Source: Coniochaeta sp. PMI_546 (lineage: Eukaryota > Ascomycota > Sordariomycetes > Coniochaetales > Coniochaetaceae). Taken from it: a DNA stretch of 64,000 bases. A program made the translations under genes and the position numbers. Below, one piece after another: positions 7,674 through 58,754 of the stretch (the first letter of the stretch is position 1; each line of letters opens with the position of its first letter). Under the pieces are notes generated by a model. It had not been told where the DNA came from and did no database searches. It worked only from the letters and a program-made list of their open reading frames with translations. The stretch is taken from positions 1,185,362 through 1,249,361 of the forward strand of contig MU271148.1 of the NCBI GenBank assembly GCA_021432605.1, written 5' to 3'.

Positions 7674-9151
7674 GGTTCCTGATGTTGCTGATGATGGCCC
7701 CGAGCTTCGAATCTCTGTATATGTTGTTGACTAGTAAGTGCCCTGTTCTATAGAGCGCCTGCGGAGAGGAGAGCGGAGAAGCTGACGTTCAAATAGCTCC
7801 TCGGTTCCCAATTCGCGTACTAGTCAGGGTCTAGTAAAACTCGCCAAGAACTCTAAACGCATCCTTCTCCTGCGAACTTGACATCTCTTCCTGAACTTTC
7901 CTAACCCCGTCGTACCGCCGTTAGGGCCGAATCAATGAACTCTTCAAACGCAGCCATCGTGTCCAGTGTTACGGAATGGAACGGGTTGTGATATGACTCA
8001 CATCGAGAAAAACAATCCCTGAACCAATGATCAATACACTTGATTGTCGACAACTCAACGGGTCATAACTTCAAAACACCAGCATCGATTTTCATGGCAG
8101 TTCACAACAAAACCCGAGCTCACAATGTTCAGAACAGAGACGCGCGACGGGCTGTGAGTCACAGTTCAAGCGTCGACGAGACTCATCAGGTCAGATGAGT
8201 TCGGAGCGCCGCGATGTCCGACAGAGCCATGCCGACTTTCTCTCGATATCTACGATAGTCATTTTCGCTAATCTACTCGGTGCAAAGTCTGGCAATTGGA
8301 GTAAATCTACTTCTTTATCAAACCCGCCAGCCGTCTTCTGTTCTGAATGCTCCAACTGTCCCAAGCCAATCTCAGAATGTGAGAGTTTCCAAAGGCGGTC
8401 TTTCGGCAACACTAGAAGACGTTTTATCAAATTCAATGTGCTCAGCATTCAACAATCTGGCCATATACTCACTGCCCATGCAAGCCACAGTTGAACGCCT
8501 GTCACCACGTACAACCGCCCGACAGTGTCAAATATTCAGGTCGAGACGCGGAAATACGGGATGCACGCGTAAAGTACCGAGCAGGAGTAGGCCCACACGC
8601 ATAGGTAGGTTTAATAAGACATAACGAAGGGTTCATCGTAGCAACGTTAGAGACATACGTTGCTGGTTCATTCTATATTCAATCTTCTTTACTCGTGAAA
8701 TTTAAGTCTATAGCAACCAGCATATCTGCTCAGCGCGATAAGTCGGGCTGGCGACTGCCAGAACAGCAGCTACACTCACAGTACCACGGCTTGACAACCA
8801 AGACTTGTGCCACAATACTCGAGACTCGAGAGTCGTGACATAGGGATGCGTTTGCTATGTACGTCTCGGACATAGTATGGTCCGAAAAGATATATACAGT
8901 CGTGATCGCACTACGCACAAACTTTTCCTTCCAGTCGAGTATTTTTTACAGACTCTCCCCGGCAATTCGAGCTCCCATCTGACACATACTGTCAAGTCGT
9001 TTAGAGCGTCGAGAATGTCCATGAGCTCTGCCAGCTATAGGCTTCGCCCGGGCCGGTGATCTCGGCATCAACGCGTCCCCACTCAGGGCTACACGAGTTC
9101 AAAACGTTAGCAGGCCACCCTCTCACTACCGCAACTACATCCCGGTAAGAC
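7674..9151. other. Intergenic spacer, nothing recognised
   Basis: Upstream region of the glutathione transferase gene and 3' flank of the epimerase gene. Opposite-strand ORFs at 8191-8624 mirror each other and have no domain. Confidence 0.55.
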
Positions 9152-10324
9152 TTACTGGTTGATCCCATCAACATAGTCCTGCGCCTCGATGGCCACACAA
9201 GAGCTACTCGTCACATTCTTATGGCTCGCCGTACCCTGCGTGCTCTTCAGCGGCGCGGTGCCATCACTCCAATAGCACGAGTACACCTGCGCGCCCGTCT
9301 GGTCCGTCCTGAGGTCCGCCCTGATCCCGCTCCACGGACTGGCCAGCGTCAGCACCGACGCGTCCTTCGGGGCATTATCAAAGATCCAGAACCCGTTGTA
9401 CCCGGCACACGTCCCACCGCAGTTACCGGCGAAGCCGGCCGCGCCGACGGCATGTCCGAAGCTGATGTTGCTGGCGCTCGCGAAATCGTTGACGCTCCCC
9501 GGCGCGGCGGTCAGGATCTTGCCCGTCGGCAACGCGCCGTCGTCGAGCTCCAGGTATCGCTTGGAGTAGGGCAGGTGCAGCGTGTGGTCCCAGATCAGGT
9601 CCGAGGCCGGGTTCTTGTAGGCGTCGAGGTTGAAGTACGTGTGCTGGGTGAGCATCAGGGGTGTCTTGGCCTCGGGTGAGATGGCCTGCATCAGAATCTT
9701 CCAGGTGCTGTTGGCGACACTGTAGGTCACGCTGGCGTAGACCTGCCCGATCATGCCGAGGGAGGAGTTGGAGGGGTCCGAGATGTTGAAGGTGATGGAG
9801 TCGGCGGTGAGTGCGGTCACGTTCCAGAAGCGGTAGGACCAGTTGTTTGTCCCGCTGTGCAGCGTGTTGTTGCCGTCATTCACTTGGGTGTGGTATGTCG
9901 TGTTGTCGATCTTGTACGTGGCGTGGCCAATGCGGTTGACGTAGCGGCCCGGGATGGAGTTGTACACTGGGTGCCCAGGGTCCACAGCTGTGCACTGTCA
10001 GCATGTGCTAGTCCAAGTTGTCACAATCCGATGGAGGGGGTTATCATACGATAGTAAGAGATATTGTCATATCCCAGCACGACGTCTACATCCATTCCCA
10101 TTTTGTCCTTGACAAACAGGTTGGTAAGACTAGCTCCATAGTCGATGAACTATTGAAGGGTTAGTCTCGCCTAAACTTATAGTGACTTTCAGGTTACGAA
10201 CTTGAGCTTTGATACCGGGTGCTGAGATGGTATACTTTCCATCTGCTCCCGGTGCAAAGGCCGAGTCCAGGCCCATGACAGCCACCGCTTGCGCGATGAC
10301 TGTGAAGATCGCTGACAAACGCAT
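9152..10324 (-). CDS. Secreted aldose 1-epimerase (mutarotase, 352 aa)
   Basis: Three exons: 10324-10202, 10149-10050 and 9987-9152, with introns of 52 and 62 nt and consistent phases. The N-terminus MRLSAIFTVIAQAVAVMG is a predicted signal peptide. The spliced product reads FIDYGASLTNLFVKDKMG, then DPGHPVYNSIPGRYVNRIG, NNTLHSGTNNWSYRFW, the catalytic His region LTQHTYFNLD and the C-terminal catalytic Glu region SCVAIEAQDY, in the order of galactose mutarotase enzymes. It would interconvert alpha and beta anomers of hexoses outside the cell, helping uptake or oxidation of sugars released from polysaccharides. Length fits the extracellular fungal members. Confidence 0.93.
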
Positions 10325-16672: not shown

Positions 16673-16800
16673 AGCTGCGTGGCGCAGTGGAAGCGCGGTA
16701 AGTCCTGGAAACTCGCTAGTGATGACATGAGCACCATAACTAATTCGCCTCAGCCGGGCTCATAACCCGGAGGTCCTCCGATCGAAACGGAGCGCAGCTA
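16673..16800 (+). tRNA. Initiator tRNA-Met (CAU) interrupted by a 56-nt insert at position 26/27
   Basis: The 5' part (16673-16697) is AGCTGCG-TG-GCGC-AGTGGAA-GCGC-G: acceptor strand, D-arm and base 26. The 3' part (16754-16800) is CCGGG-CTCATAA-CCCGG-AGGTC-CTCCG-ATCGAAA-CGGAG-CGCAGCT-A. Joined, they make a 72-nt tRNA with perfect acceptor, D, anticodon and T stems. Initiator hallmarks are present: a 1-72 A-U pair, an AUCGAAA T-loop starting with A54, and anticodon CAU. The insert (16698-16753) starts GTAAGT and ends CCTCAG with AACTAAT upstream, as in a spliceosomal intron. The usual tRNA intron site (37/38) is uninterrupted. Box A and box B are intact and a T5 run follows. Whether a mature tRNA is made is unknown. 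Confidence 0.85.
16698..16753 (+). other. Spliceosomal-like 56-nt insert inside the tRNA gene
   Basis: The insert has 5' GTAAGT, a branch-like AACTAAT near 16738-16744 and 3' CAG. Its length matches the protein-gene introns of this window (51-88 nt). The boundary is ambiguous by one base because G occurs on both sides. Confidence 0.7.
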
Positions 16801-16805
16801 CTCCA

Positions 16806-16810
16806 TTTTT
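16806..16810 (+). terminator. RNA polymerase III terminator of the tRNA gene
   Basis: A run of five T lies five bases after the discriminator base, as expected for Pol III termination. Confidence 0.8.
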
Positions 16811-54303: not shown

Positions 54304-55833
54304 TCATCTCACCCCATCCCTCGGATCCTTCTCCTTCAGCACCTTCCTCGGCCAGTCCGGACAGATGTCAATCTTGTCTCTGGGGAACCAGATCTCCAGG
54401 AACACAAAGATCAGATAATCGATAATCACACACAGGCAGAACAGCTTGCCGGCCCAGATGCCGCACCCGTAGTACCGCTTCAACCTATCGATGAGCGCAA
54501 AGCTCTGGACCCCGGACCGGCCCCTGATGGCACTCCAGCTGTTGCCCCCGGGATAGTTCGCGGCCTCGTAGCCGTAGAACTCGCCCTCGCTGATGTCGCC
54601 GCAGATGCCGTTGTACACCCTCTCGGTGCGCTGGGCGACGTTGGTCCAGCTGTACATGCTCTTGACCTGCTCGTGGAACAGCTCCGTGCGGACCTTGCCC
54701 GCGCGCAGGGCGGCGATGGCGCGTCCCGTGGCGGCGACGAGGTCGTCCTCCTCCGGGCGGGCGAAGACGGTCATGTGCGACGGTAGGACTTCGGGGATGC
54801 CGCCGACCTGCGTGCAGACGACGTACAGTCCGCACGAGGCGGCCTCGACGATGACGGTGCCGAAGGCCTCTGTGAGGGATGGGTGCAGGTAGATGTGCCC
54901 GCGGACCATGACGTCGCGGACTTCCTCGTGGCGGACGGGGCCGAGCATCTCGACGCGGTCTTGGAGGACGTTTTGCTCGATCATCTGCTCGAGGTCGATG
55001 GCTTTGGGACCGGAGCCGGCGATGATGAAGCGGGTGTTGGGGTGATTCTCTAGGATGCGCGGGATGGCGGCTGTGAGGAGGTCGGTGCCTTTGTTGTAGA
55101 AGAGACGGGATATGACGACTATGGTTATTGTGTCGTGGGGTCCGAGATGTTGGCGCGGGGGTGGGGGGTTGGGGTGGATAAAGGAGGCTTGGTTGCTGGG
55201 TTTGTGGGCAGTGTTGTAGGTCGTGTTGGTTTTCGACGGAGGTTCGTATGATAGAGGGCGGAAGTTCTCTGCCACCACGGCGTTGGGTATTACGGAGACC
55301 ATGAGCGGGTCGAGGGAGGCGCGCAGGACGGTGTTCTCCTTGCACGTGTGGCTGACGCAGATGACATGGTCGACGTCGCTGAGAGTGAACTTGAGCAACT
55401 TGTTGGTGAGAATGCTAGCAGCGTCGGCGAAGCCAAACAGGGAGTGATCAGTGAATACGGTGCGAAGGCCCATGGTACGACCGTGGAGGATGGCCTCGTG
55501 GCACAGACTGCTCAGACTTGCGTGGCCGTGGACGATCTCGATACGCTCGCGAAGGACAATGTTGCGGAACATGGGGAAGAAGGAGAAGACAGTCGGAAAG
55601 GTGGAGGAGCGGTAGATGACCAGGAATGGCACATGATAGACCTTGATGCCATTAGTGAGGTAGCGTATGCCGGTGCGACCATCGTAGGCGTGAGTGATGA
55701 TGATGACCTTGTGGCCGCGATCCATCAGCTTGGACGAGAGCTGGTAGATGTGCGACTCGACGCCTCCTGGTTGCGGGAAGAAGAAGTCGCTAACCATGGC
55801 GATGTTGTATGTTCGACGCTTCTTGTCCGGCAT
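54304..55833 (-). CDS. gpi3: Gpi3/PIG-A, catalytic subunit of GPI-GlcNAc transferase (509 aa)
   Basis: Intronless; the first ATG in frame is at 55833 (MPDKKRRTYNIAMVSDFFFP). It catalyses the first step of GPI-anchor synthesis, moving GlcNAc from UDP-GlcNAc to phosphatidylinositol on the cytoplasmic face of the ER, within the Gpi1/2/3/15/19/Eri1 complex. Landmarks: FFFPQPGGVESHIYQLSSKL at residues about 15-35, VHGHASLSSLCHEAILHGRT, FTDHSLFGFADAASI, VISRLFYNKGTDLL and the GT4 family E-x7-E motif in LTEAFGTVIVEAASCG. A C-terminal membrane helix (LFCLCVIIDYLIFVFLEIWF, about 460-480) anchors it, with a short lumenal tail. A Pro/Asn/Thr-rich stretch of about 35 residues lies between the two glycosyltransferase lobes. 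It is divergently paired with dbp6. Confidence 0.96.
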   Translation of the reverse strand: MPDKKRRTYNIAMVSDFFFPQPGGVESHIYQLSSKLMDRGHKVIIITHAYDGRTGIRYLTNGIKVYHVPFLVIYRSSTFPTVFSFFPMFRNIVLRERIEIVHGHASLSSLCHEAILHGRTMGLRTVFTDHSLFGFADAASILTNKLLKFTLSDVDHVICVSHTCKENTVLRASLDPLMVSVIPNAVVAENFRPLSYEPPSKTNTTYNTAHKPSNQASFIHPNPPPPRQHLGPHDTITIVVISRLFYNKGTDLLTAAIPRILENHPNTRFIIAGSGPKAIDLEQMIEQNVLQDRVEMLGPVRHEEVRDVMVRGHIYLHPSLTEAFGTVIVEAASCGLYVVCTQVGGIPEVLPSHMTVFARPEEDDLVAATGRAIAALRAGKVRTELFHEQVKSMYSWTNVAQRTERVYNGICGDISEGEFYGYEAANYPGGNSWSAIRGRSGVQSFALIDRLKRYYGCGIWAGKLFCLCVIIDYLIFVFLEIWFPRDKIDICPDWPRKVLKEKDPRDGVR

Positions 55834-56147
55834 TTTGTGAGGCTTGTCATGATGTTGATGATTATTCGTTGAATTGTTGTGGTCTGGAGAAGAGAGTCTC
55901 CTTCCCAGCCTCAGGTACTCCAATGTCGTCGCATCAAGTTCCGTCGCGTGTCGTTGGAAGCTGGCGGCGATAAGAGACACGATAACGATAAGCACGATCG
56001 ATAAGAGAAGGAAATTGAGCGGTCAAGTGCGGCAATTGGGCATCCCATGTACTAGACTCGACCTCGCTCAAAATATTTGGGCCAAGATGCCATTGACATG
56101 AACCCCACCACAGCTTCGTGACCCAGCTGAGCGACTCTTCCAACAAG
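55834..56147. promoter_or_regulatory. Bidirectional promoter region between gpi3 and dbp6
   Basis: Only 314 bp separate the two outward-reading start codons, so both 5' UTRs and promoters lie here. No TATA element is obvious. Confidence 0.6.
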
Positions 56148-58754
56148 ATGTACGCCCGCTACATTCCTCCCCCGAAGACCAAGGAGGCACCCAAGGTCGA
56201 AGCGCAACCTGCGGCTGCAGCTGGCACTTTTTCGACGACTGCAACAGCACCATACGCTAGGTATATCCCAGCACCGAAGACCAAAGGCGCACCAACAGCA
56301 GCAGCTCCGGGTCCTGCTCCAAAGAAGATTGTGTTCGCTCAAGACGACGAGACTCCGGCGGTTCTTCCGAAGAAGATTGTATTTCAGGATGATGCATCTG
56401 AAGAAAGCCCCAAGAAGCGCAAGCGAAGTGGCGGAAATGACGATGAATCCAGCAACAAGAAGGACAAGAAGTCCAAAAAGTCGAAGTCCGATGATGGTGG
56501 AGAAGGACACATAGAGACCTCTATCAAGAAGATCAAGAGGAAGAAGTCCAAGGTGGATACCGCCGAGCAAGACGACGAGGACGAGACAGCCCGTAAGCAG
56601 GATAAGAAGGAGAGGAAAAAGACGAGGCGATCGCTAGCAGAGGACGGCGAGGAGTCGGTATTGGCGGAACAGGAATCCACAAAACCTGAAGACGAAGCGG
56701 AGCAGGCCCCAGAAGCCGGGGACGGCTCTGCGAAGGTGAAGAAAGAGAAACGAAAGAAGAAGTCCAAAGCAGAGCCCGTTGAGCAGGACGATGACGAGCA
56801 AGAAGACAAACTTGATAAGCGCCACAAAGCCATTTTGGAAAGGAAGGAGAAGGCCTTGAAGCAGCAGAAGAAGCTCAAGGAGAATAGGGAAGACGCAAAT
56901 GAGGACGGTCACGGCATTGCCCCAGAACCAGAAGAGCTGCATGGCCTCGAGCCGCTTCCTCAGCCGGAGCCGGTGGCGTTGGATGGCGCAAAGCCCACTT
57001 ACGATACCCTACCACACTGGCTTTCACATCCTTTTCGGGTCCAGTCTAAAACCAAGGCCGCTTTCACAGATCTAGGGATCGAGTCCGACGCTGCGCAAAT
57101 TCTAGCGAGCAAGGGTTACAGGGAGGCTTTTGCTGTACAAACCGCCGCGATACCGCTGTTATTGCCATCATTGGACAGGCAGGGGGATCTGGTGGTCTCC
57201 GCAGCTACTGGTTCGGGCAAGACGCTCGCTTATGTGCTACCAATGGTTCGGGACATAAGCCAAGGGGTTGTCACCAGACTTAGAGGCTTGATTGTCGTGC
57301 CTACCAGGGAACTGGTTCGCCAGGCCCAGGAAGCCTGCGAGATCTGCGCCGGTGCTTTTTCGCACGGAGGCAGAAAACGCGTCAAAGTCGGAATCTCTAT
57401 GGGTAGCATGGCGTTCAAACAAGCGCAGGCCGCCCTTGTGGAGGAGGAGCAGAAGTACGACCCGTCCGGTTACCAAGCCTATCTCAGGAAGCGAAATCAG
57501 ATCGTCAACCTAGATGACTCAGACGACGAAGATGATTCTAAGCCAACATTAGACCCACAAACGAAACCACTACCTGACCACGTTATCGAGAACGTCTCAA
57601 AGGTCGACATCCTGATTTGTACCCCTGGAAGACTGGTGGAGCACATCAAGCAAACGCCTGGTTTCACACTCGACTATGTCAGGTGGCTGGTCGTGGACGA
57701 AGCGGACAAGCTGCTCGCACAGAGCTTTCAGCAGTGGCTCGACGTCGTCATGAACAAGTTGAGCACTGAGATCCCCGGCGCCCGCGACTTCCCCCACTCG
57801 AATAAGAGCGGTGTGCGCAAGGTCATTCTGAGCGCTACAATGACGCGCGACCTCAGTCTCCTCAACGGACTCAAGCTGCGCAGGCCTAAGCTCGTCTTGC
57901 TGGAGGGCACGAGTGAAGAGGACAACCAGGATGGTGCTGCTCCTGAGGGAGAGCATGTCTTACCCGATCTCCTGAAGGAATTGGTCATCAAGATCCGTGA
58001 CTCGAACCTGAAGCCATTGTACCTAGTTGATTTGCTCAACAGCAAGCACATGGTAGCTATGAACAAGGCGAGCGATACAGAAAAAGCACCTCAGGGCGAT
58101 GAATCAGACGCTTCTTCCTCGTCATCAGCATCAGACTCCGACTCCGACTCCGAATCCGACTCTGACGCCTCCTCCACTTCTTCAGCGGCGCCCAAATCCT
58201 CCATCCCTAACACGTTCGATACCACAGTCCTGATCTTCACCAAATCCAACGAATCCGCCCTCCGCCTCTCCCGCCTCCTCGCAATCCTATCTCCGCACCT
58301 ATCTTCCCTAATCGGCACCCTAACCTCCACGACGCCCACCGCCATCAGGCGGCGCACTCTCGCCTCCTTCAGTCATCGCAAGACACGCATACTCGTCGCC
58401 TCCGATCTTGTAGCCCGCGGAATCGACCTCCCCGACCTCGACCACGTGGTCAACTACGACGTCCCCGGAAGCGCGGCGGCCTACGTACACCGCGTGGGCC
58501 GGACGGCGAGAGCCGGGCGCAAGGGATGCGCCTGGACGCTGGTTAGTAATGCCGAGGCGGCCTGGTTCTTCAGGGAGATTGGCGGGGAGGGCAAGGGAAA
58601 GGAGAGCGGACGGGTTAGACGCAGTGGGAAGGTCGAGCGTGTTAGGATTGGGGACGTGGGTGAGGATGGATTTGGGGAGGAGCGGGTCAAGGCGTATGAG
58701 AGCGCGCTGGAGCAGCTTGGGAAGGAGGCTGGGGAGGGAAGAAGGAGGAAGTGA
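56148..58754 (+). CDS. dbp6: DEAD-box RNA helicase Dbp6 (868 aa)
   Basis: Intronless. The ATG at 56148 gives MYARYIPPPKT, the typical start of fungal Dbp6; the longer open frame upstream has no ATG. It acts in the nucleolus in early 60S pre-ribosome assembly. Residues 1-270 are a Lys/Glu-rich charged extension. The helicase core has FAVQTAAIPLLLPS (Q-like motif), AATGSGKTLAYVLP (motif I, about 350), VPTRELVRQAQE (Ia), ICTPGRLVEH (Ib), VVDEADKLL (II, about 515), SATMTR (III, about 561), VLIFTKSNESALRLSRL (IV), ASDLVARGIDLPD (V) and YVHRVGRTARAGR (VI, about 780). A Ser/Asp run (about 645-680) sits between the two lobes, as in other Dbp6 proteins. It is divergent from gpi3. Confidence 0.96.
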   Translation: MYARYIPPPKTKEAPKVEAQPAAAAGTFSTTATAPYARYIPAPKTKGAPTAAAPGPAPKKIVFAQDDETPAVLPKKIVFQDDASEESPKKRKRSGGNDDESSNKKDKKSKKSKSDDGGEGHIETSIKKIKRKKSKVDTAEQDDEDETARKQDKKERKKTRRSLAEDGEESVLAEQESTKPEDEAEQAPEAGDGSAKVKKEKRKKKSKAEPVEQDDDEQEDKLDKRHKAILERKEKALKQQKKLKENREDANEDGHGIAPEPEELHGLEPLPQPEPVALDGAKPTYDTLPHWLSHPFRVQSKTKAAFTDLGIESDAAQILASKGYREAFAVQTAAIPLLLPSLDRQGDLVVSAATGSGKTLAYVLPMVRDISQGVVTRLRGLIVVPTRELVRQAQEACEICAGAFSHGGRKRVKVGISMGSMAFKQAQAALVEEEQKYDPSGYQAYLRKRNQIVNLDDSDDEDDSKPTLDPQTKPLPDHVIENVSKVDILICTPGRLVEHIKQTPGFTLDYVRWLVVDEADKLLAQSFQQWLDVVMNKLSTEIPGARDFPHSNKSGVRKVILSATMTRDLSLLNGLKLRRPKLVLLEGTSEEDNQDGAAPEGEHVLPDLLKELVIKIRDSNLKPLYLVDLLNSKHMVAMNKASDTEKAPQGDESDASSSSSASDSDSDSESDSDASSTSSAAPKSSIPNTFDTTVLIFTKSNESALRLSRLLAILSPHLSSLIGTLTSTTPTAIRRRTLASFSHRKTRILVASDLVARGIDLPDLDHVVNYDVPGSAAAYVHRVGRTARAGRKGCAWTLVSNAEAAWFFREIGGEGKGKESGRVRRSGKVERVRIGDVGEDGFGEERVKAYESALEQLGKEAGEGRRRK

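Follow-up and report, generated by a model that had tools for sequence, protein, structure and literature searches.

Initiator tRNA genes of Coniochaeta sp. PMI_546 are split by inserts with the signals of spliceosomal introns

In the fungus Coniochaeta sp. PMI_546, every initiator tRNA-Met gene that could be found in the genome is interrupted at the same base by a short insert with the ends and branch site of an mRNA-type intron. Judging from these signals, we consider it highly probable (about 0.87) that all initiator tRNA of this organism is made by spliceosomal splicing of a precursor transcribed by RNA polymerase III (Pol III), the insert acting as a U2-type GT-AG intron in five genes. 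With every nuclear copy found being split, the cell probably needs its mRNA-splicing machinery to obtain this essential tRNA. It also seems quite likely that eukaryotes have a second route of tRNA splicing, and that all translation initiation would here depend on the major spliceosome excising 56 to 60 nt from a Pol III pre-tRNA. The stretch of DNA in which the first of these genes was annotated, hereafter the window, comprises 64,000 nt (contig MU271148.1 of assembly GCA_021432605.1, positions 1,185,362 to 1,249,361).

The split gene and its copies in the genome

The plus-strand segment 16673-16800 of the window is a perfect 72-nt initiator tRNA-Met interrupted after base 26 by an insert of 56 nt. 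The 5′ exon (16673-16697; 25 nt) holds an acceptor strand, the D arm and G26, and the 3′ exon (16754-16800; 47 nt) holds the anticodon arm with CAT, the variable loop, the T arm with A54 and the other acceptor strand; both exons are identical at all five loci. Between bases 26 and 27 lies the insert (16698-16753), by its sequence signals an intron of the spliceosomal type, which opens with the 5′ splice site GTAAGT (16698-16703), contains an ACTAAT branch site (16739-16744) with the predicted branch A at 16743, 10 nt from the intron end, and closes with the 3′ splice site CAG (16751-16753). The coordinates and exon lengths proposed in the initial annotation proved exact, and its description of the insert ends as those of an intron held, the combination of donor, branch and acceptor being rare by chance and the anatomy recurring at all five loci. 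The 37/38 site, which it had described as uninterrupted, is indeed so, the anticodon loop CTCATAA being whole and the insert lying at 26/27.

That the exons join into a complete initiator tRNA, as had also been claimed, is borne out by folding, since the cloverleaf is the minimum-energy fold of the joined 72-mer (−32.1 kcal/mol), and by ARAGORN, which identified the joined form as tRNA-Met(cat) and the unjoined form as nothing or, with introns allowed, as a false tRNA-Arg. Rfam at gathering cut-offs detected no tRNA in the whole window. The joined RNA has the CAT anticodon together with A1-U72, A54 (16781) and a GGG/CCC anticodon stem, the last three of which we take to be features of initiator tRNA-Met. 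The splice junction is ambiguous by one base, slides of 0 and −1 giving the same joined RNA, and only one of the two placements obeys GT-AG. Alternative slid excisions fold equally well or slightly better (−34.2, −33.5 and −32.9 kcal/mol at slides −8, −6 and −7, respectively), so that energy alone cannot choose the junction, which is fixed instead by the tRNA sequence.

The genome searched comprises 33.5 Mb in 24 contigs, with assembly completeness not given. It holds five initiator loci on four contigs (C1:1313712, C2:374049, C2:2601594, C3:2399507 and C6:1202041, the last being the window locus), and pattern searches together with a BLAST-type search placed the split at the same base, 26/27, in all of them. 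No uninterrupted initiator copy was found in the genome with patterns for the 5′ and 3′ halves or with a BLAST-type search using the joined 72-mer. An 18-nt pattern for the 5′ half, allowing up to two mismatches, gave 18 matches; the five exact ones are all initiator loci, and the 13 with two mismatches are either other tRNAs according to ARAGORN (nine) or contain no tRNA (four). A 3′-half pattern with up to three mismatches returned the five initiator loci and nothing else, a second 3′ pattern at the same tolerance returned the same five with no match in the control, and the joined 72-mer produced ten matches, namely both halves of the five loci, and no whole copy.

The initial annotation had left a choice between another splicing route and a single gene copy that had been invaded and silenced. 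A single dead copy is rejected, all five initiator loci found being split and none whole, and the notion of another splicing route gains support, no uninterrupted gene having been found elsewhere. An assembly error is likewise rejected, with five loci on four contigs and inserts that differ in sequence.

When introns were allowed, ARAGORN named the five loci (L009 to L013) Cys, Gln, Glu, Arg and Arg, so that annotations in this group of fungi may lack an initiator tRNA and contain false tRNAs in its place. By eye, L010 and L011 are alike over about 50 upstream bases; L010 and L012 share GTAAAATAACGCA some 20 to 40 bases ahead of the tRNA, where a stretch of L011 ending in GACGCA resembles it. 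This likeness of L010, L011 and L012 could be a sign of gene duplication or of a common upstream Pol III element.

Searches for further tRNA genes of this kind returned the initiator genes and matches at chance level. A first pattern for a tRNA with such an insert matched the genome twice, against one match in the reversed control; a second matched 26 times, against 36 in the reversed control, with six exact matches, five of them the initiator genes, and 20 with one mismatch. ARAGORN recognised no tRNA in the non-initiator matches (2 + 1 + 20), a weak test given that it expects introns near the anticodon and could overlook a tRNA that is split elsewhere. The tRNA search of the genome scored 63 of 897 candidates and 40 of its 62 matches were read, an incomplete inventory with which a second tRNA family carrying such introns would be compatible; none of the 40 matches read is of the methionine type. 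Two scans of genomic and three of viral contig collections for the initiator pattern gave no eukaryotic initiator gene, but these collections are viral, bacterial and archaeal and thus uninformative about fungi. Among 83 loci from two of these scans one (L123) has CTCATAA downstream, and it is an unsplit tRNA-like gene on a short viral contig that shares an 18-nt D-arm stretch, TGGCGCAGTGGAAGCGCG. Another of the viral scans gave at least 119 stretches, and the initiator T loop occurs in none of the 80 matches listed.

Splice signals of the inserts and of host introns

The inserts of the five initiator loci measure 58, 60, 60, 56 and 56 nt. In ten pairwise comparisons of the loci the 72 exon bases were 100% identical in every pair and the inserts 43-67% identical. 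Conserved within the divergent inserts are the donor, GTAAGT in all five; a single RCTRAY motif in each, ACTGAC in four and ACTAAT in one; the distance from the branch A to the last intron base (13, 14, 13, 13 and 10 nt); and a YAG acceptor, either TAG or CAG. The published consensus for fungal introns is GTRWGT, RCTRAY and YAG, with the branch 6-36 nt before the acceptor (PMC5832005), and all five inserts agree with this U2-type consensus in donor, branch site, branch distance and acceptor.

Aligned over 61 columns, the inserts have 16 invariant positions, which account for 12 of the 14 columns in donor, branch and AG against 4 of 47 elsewhere (Fisher p = 8e-8, to be taken as a guide only, the loci being paralogous, the signal columns having been named after looking and the columns counted by eye). 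Among random 58-mers of the same composition, 4 in 2,000,000 have donor, branch and acceptor together. Because of this rarity, and because the same anatomy is present at five of five initiator loci, we judge the predicted splice-signal anatomy not to be a product of chance. Inserts that diverge yet keep their splice signals, between exons that are identical, argue strongly against one dead copy.

For comparison with introns of protein genes, we used an aldose 1-epimerase gene (galactose mutarotase-like) on the minus strand of the window (9004-10324), which, when spliced, reproduces the deposited protein P0241 of Coniochaeta sp. PMI_546 letter for letter (100% identity over 99% of the query). 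Its three introns (10201-10150, 10049-9988 and 9155-9089, all exact with respect to that protein) are 52, 62 and 67 nt long, with donors GTTCGT, GTATGA and GTAAGT, branch sites ACTAAC, GCTGAC and GCTAAC and acceptors TAG, CAG and TAG; the protein is also obtained if a fourth piece, with GC-AG borders, is taken out at the 3′ end, but this solution is unlikely. The initial annotation had stated that the insert matches the protein-gene introns in consensus and length. For this one gene, the statement stands for length, for RCTRAY (3/3) and for YAG (3/3) but not for the donor, GTAAGT being present in one of the three, and the two proven host donors that differ from it count against a spliceosomal reading. 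The insert lengths of 56-60 nt compare with the 52, 62 and 67 nt of this gene and with 64 and 95 nt in the U3 genes described below, a small sample. Two other genes of the window, encoding a GPI3/PIG-A glycosyltransferase (54307-56022, minus strand) and a Dbp6/DDX51-like RNA helicase (56097-58751, plus strand), consist of single open frames. A window-wide scan for intron-like motifs yielded six with the strict GTAAGT donor, the insert included (shuffles: mean 1.3, maximum 4), and 42 with relaxed donors (shuffles: mean 29.5, maximum 39); neither count was used as evidence.

Two U3 snoRNA genes were found (L201, C22:196904-197159, minus strand; L202, C22:66553-66809, plus strand), and each is interrupted close to its 5′ end, behind the sequence TCGACAA, by a GT-AG intron; the introns measure 95 and 64 nt, with the exon limits set from the known U3 start. 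RCTRAY is present in one of these two introns, the 95-nt intron having TCTAAC in its place. Spliceosomal-type introns are thus present in another structured RNA of this genome. Counting against the spliceosomal reading, no intron interrupts the SRP RNA or the U6 match above the cut-off, both of which align from end to end, so that introns are not general among the Pol III RNAs of this genome.

Proposed route of removal and rival explanations

The window gene contains, on the plus strand and read from its sequence, a box A (TGGCGCAGTGG, 16680-16690), a box B core (GATCGAAAC, 16780-16788) and a terminator-like T5 run (16806-16810), all of them intact as initially annotated, and we take this combination to be that of a Pol III type 2 gene. 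Both boxes lie within the conserved tRNA and are intact at all five loci, and at each of the five a run of at least five T begins 4-8 nt past the 3′ end of the tRNA (base 73), by eye; at 35 of 40 other tRNA loci a run of four or more T starts within 30 nt. From these boxes and T-runs we infer Pol III transcription of the five split genes, just as we infer the action of the spliceosome from the observed anatomy, the splitting of all five loci, the lack of a whole copy among the loci found and the conservation of the splice signals.

In the route that we propose, the internal boxes would direct Pol III to transcribe the split gene as far as the T-run. U1 would pair with GTAAGT just 3′ of the D stem and U2 with ACTRAY 10-14 nt before the intron end, and the spliceosome would then join G26 to C27; the cell would have no initiator tRNA other than this product. 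Splicing could come before or after the trimming of the ends by RNase P and 3′ processing. The insertion site lies between two helices, with the splice sites next to the D stem and the anticodon stem. Predicted folds of the precursor keep all four stems in three of the five genes; those of L009 and L012 disrupt the D stem by rearrangement, which counts against the proposal. Pol III transcripts moreover lack the cap and the CTD, the usual aids to the spliceosome, and this too weighs against it.

That the five loci are dead or silenced, and that a whole initiator gene resides in sequence absent from the assembly, would be conceivable for an assembly of 24 contigs of unstated completeness. Dead copies, however, would not be expected to retain donor, branch and acceptor, nor do they fit with 72 exon bases identical at five of five loci while the inserts differ by 33-57%, with T-runs still placed 4-8 nt downstream at all five, or with the finding of no partial or degraded initiator copy within reach of the genome pattern and BLAST-type searches; we regard this explanation as very improbable. 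A self-splicing intron of group I or II was rejected, 56-60 nt being too short and no Rfam match being present in the window at the gathering cut-off; around the locus Rfam gave only a chance lncRNA match (E 0.56).

If the Sen tRNA splicing endonuclease excised the inserts away from its usual position and Trl1 ligated the ends, there would be precedent in some archaea and algae, off-position introns being described in archaea (PMC8450103) and in algal nuclei and nucleomorphs (PMC3978253). Canonical tRNA introns also occur here: 14 of the 40 loci read have an intron, which in 13 begins at ARAGORN positions 37-40. The fungus thus presumably has a working Sen route, yet the inserts of the initiator genes do not fit it. 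They form no bulge-helix-bulge, the best central helix reaching two to three of four pairs at all five loci over 16 registers each, and they conserve GTAAGT, RCTRAY and YAG. With no such motif at any of the five loci and a position other than 37/38, this route is unlikely in the extreme, and we rejected it. A genuine spliceosomal intron might, alternatively, be removed from a precursor made by Pol II, or by both polymerases, from which the tRNA would then be trimmed. A Pol II transcript would explain access to the spliceosome; fungal U3 is such a transcript, and introns of this kind interrupt the two U3 genes found here. Against it stand the two internal promoter boxes, intact in each of the five genes, and the T-runs of five or more that start 4-8 nt after every 3′ end, and we give such a precursor hardly any weight compared with spliceosomal splicing of a Pol III pre-tRNA.

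Implications and relation to known systems

Introns of tRNAs are described as being cut by a dedicated endonuclease and joined by a ligase, a separation from mRNA splicing that an essential and irreplaceable tRNA spliced only by the spliceosome would break, if our reading is true. Splicing of a Pol III transcript whose first exon is very short (the leader plus 25 nt) would then be efficient enough to meet the needs of the whole cell, and splicing capacity would be tied directly to translation initiation and protein synthesis. Gene finders can miss or misname split genes of this type, as ARAGORN did here, and like cases may be hidden in other fungi.

Canonical eukaryotic tRNA introns (Sen and Trl1; available part of PMC4090602) resemble the present ones in lying within a nuclear tRNA gene but differ in their position at 37/38 and in needing neither GT-AG nor a branch site; those that ARAGORN reported here, 14 cases, are 4-35 nt long. 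Off-position introns in archaea and permuted or ectopic tRNA genes in algae are likewise non-standard tRNA genes, the initiator included, but they mostly have bulge-helix-bulge motifs and use the splicing endonuclease, and the available parts of the two reports describe no spliceosomal signals (PMC8450103, PMC3978253). The first of these sources notes that tRNAscan-SE 2.0 seeks off-position introns in archaeal tRNAs (PMC8450103). Among fungi, the accessible text on Aspergillus niger lists two intronless 72-bp tRNA-Met(CAT) genes and does not state whether they are initiator or elongator (PMC6108506), and that on Saccharomycopsis schoenii gives initiator genes without introns (PMC13148404). Both point to fungi with methionine tRNA genes that are not split, and were counted against the proposal.

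Ribosomal RNA is made by Pol I, and the transcription set-up of U3 in fungi differs from that of tRNA genes. The spliceosomal introns reported in fungal nuclear rDNA (available part of PMC11782384) are like the present inserts in interrupting a non-coding transcript that is not an mRNA, but the RNA is ribosomal. The introns of fungal U3 have the same consensus as the present inserts (PMC5832005), and both U3 genes found here are interrupted, although U3 is a snoRNA and not a tRNA. According to the same source, U3 and U6 were in 2017 alone among small structured RNAs in being known to have introns often (PMC5832005). The U6 introns of fission yeast and other fungi offer a parallel in being short mRNA-type introns in a small structured RNA (PMC5832005), one that is transcribed by Pol III according to the consulted part of PMC10484740; U6 differs in being a spliceosome component and not a tRNA, and the U6 gene of the present genome is uninterrupted. 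Our searches of the open-licence full-text literature turned up no tRNA gene with a spliceosomal intron, though a report outside that literature is possible. That a Pol III RNA can contain a spliceosomal intron is a class of mechanism already known from U6; what appears to be new, within the open-licence literature searched, is that the RNA is a tRNA, and that an essential tRNA has the intron in all of its copies found.
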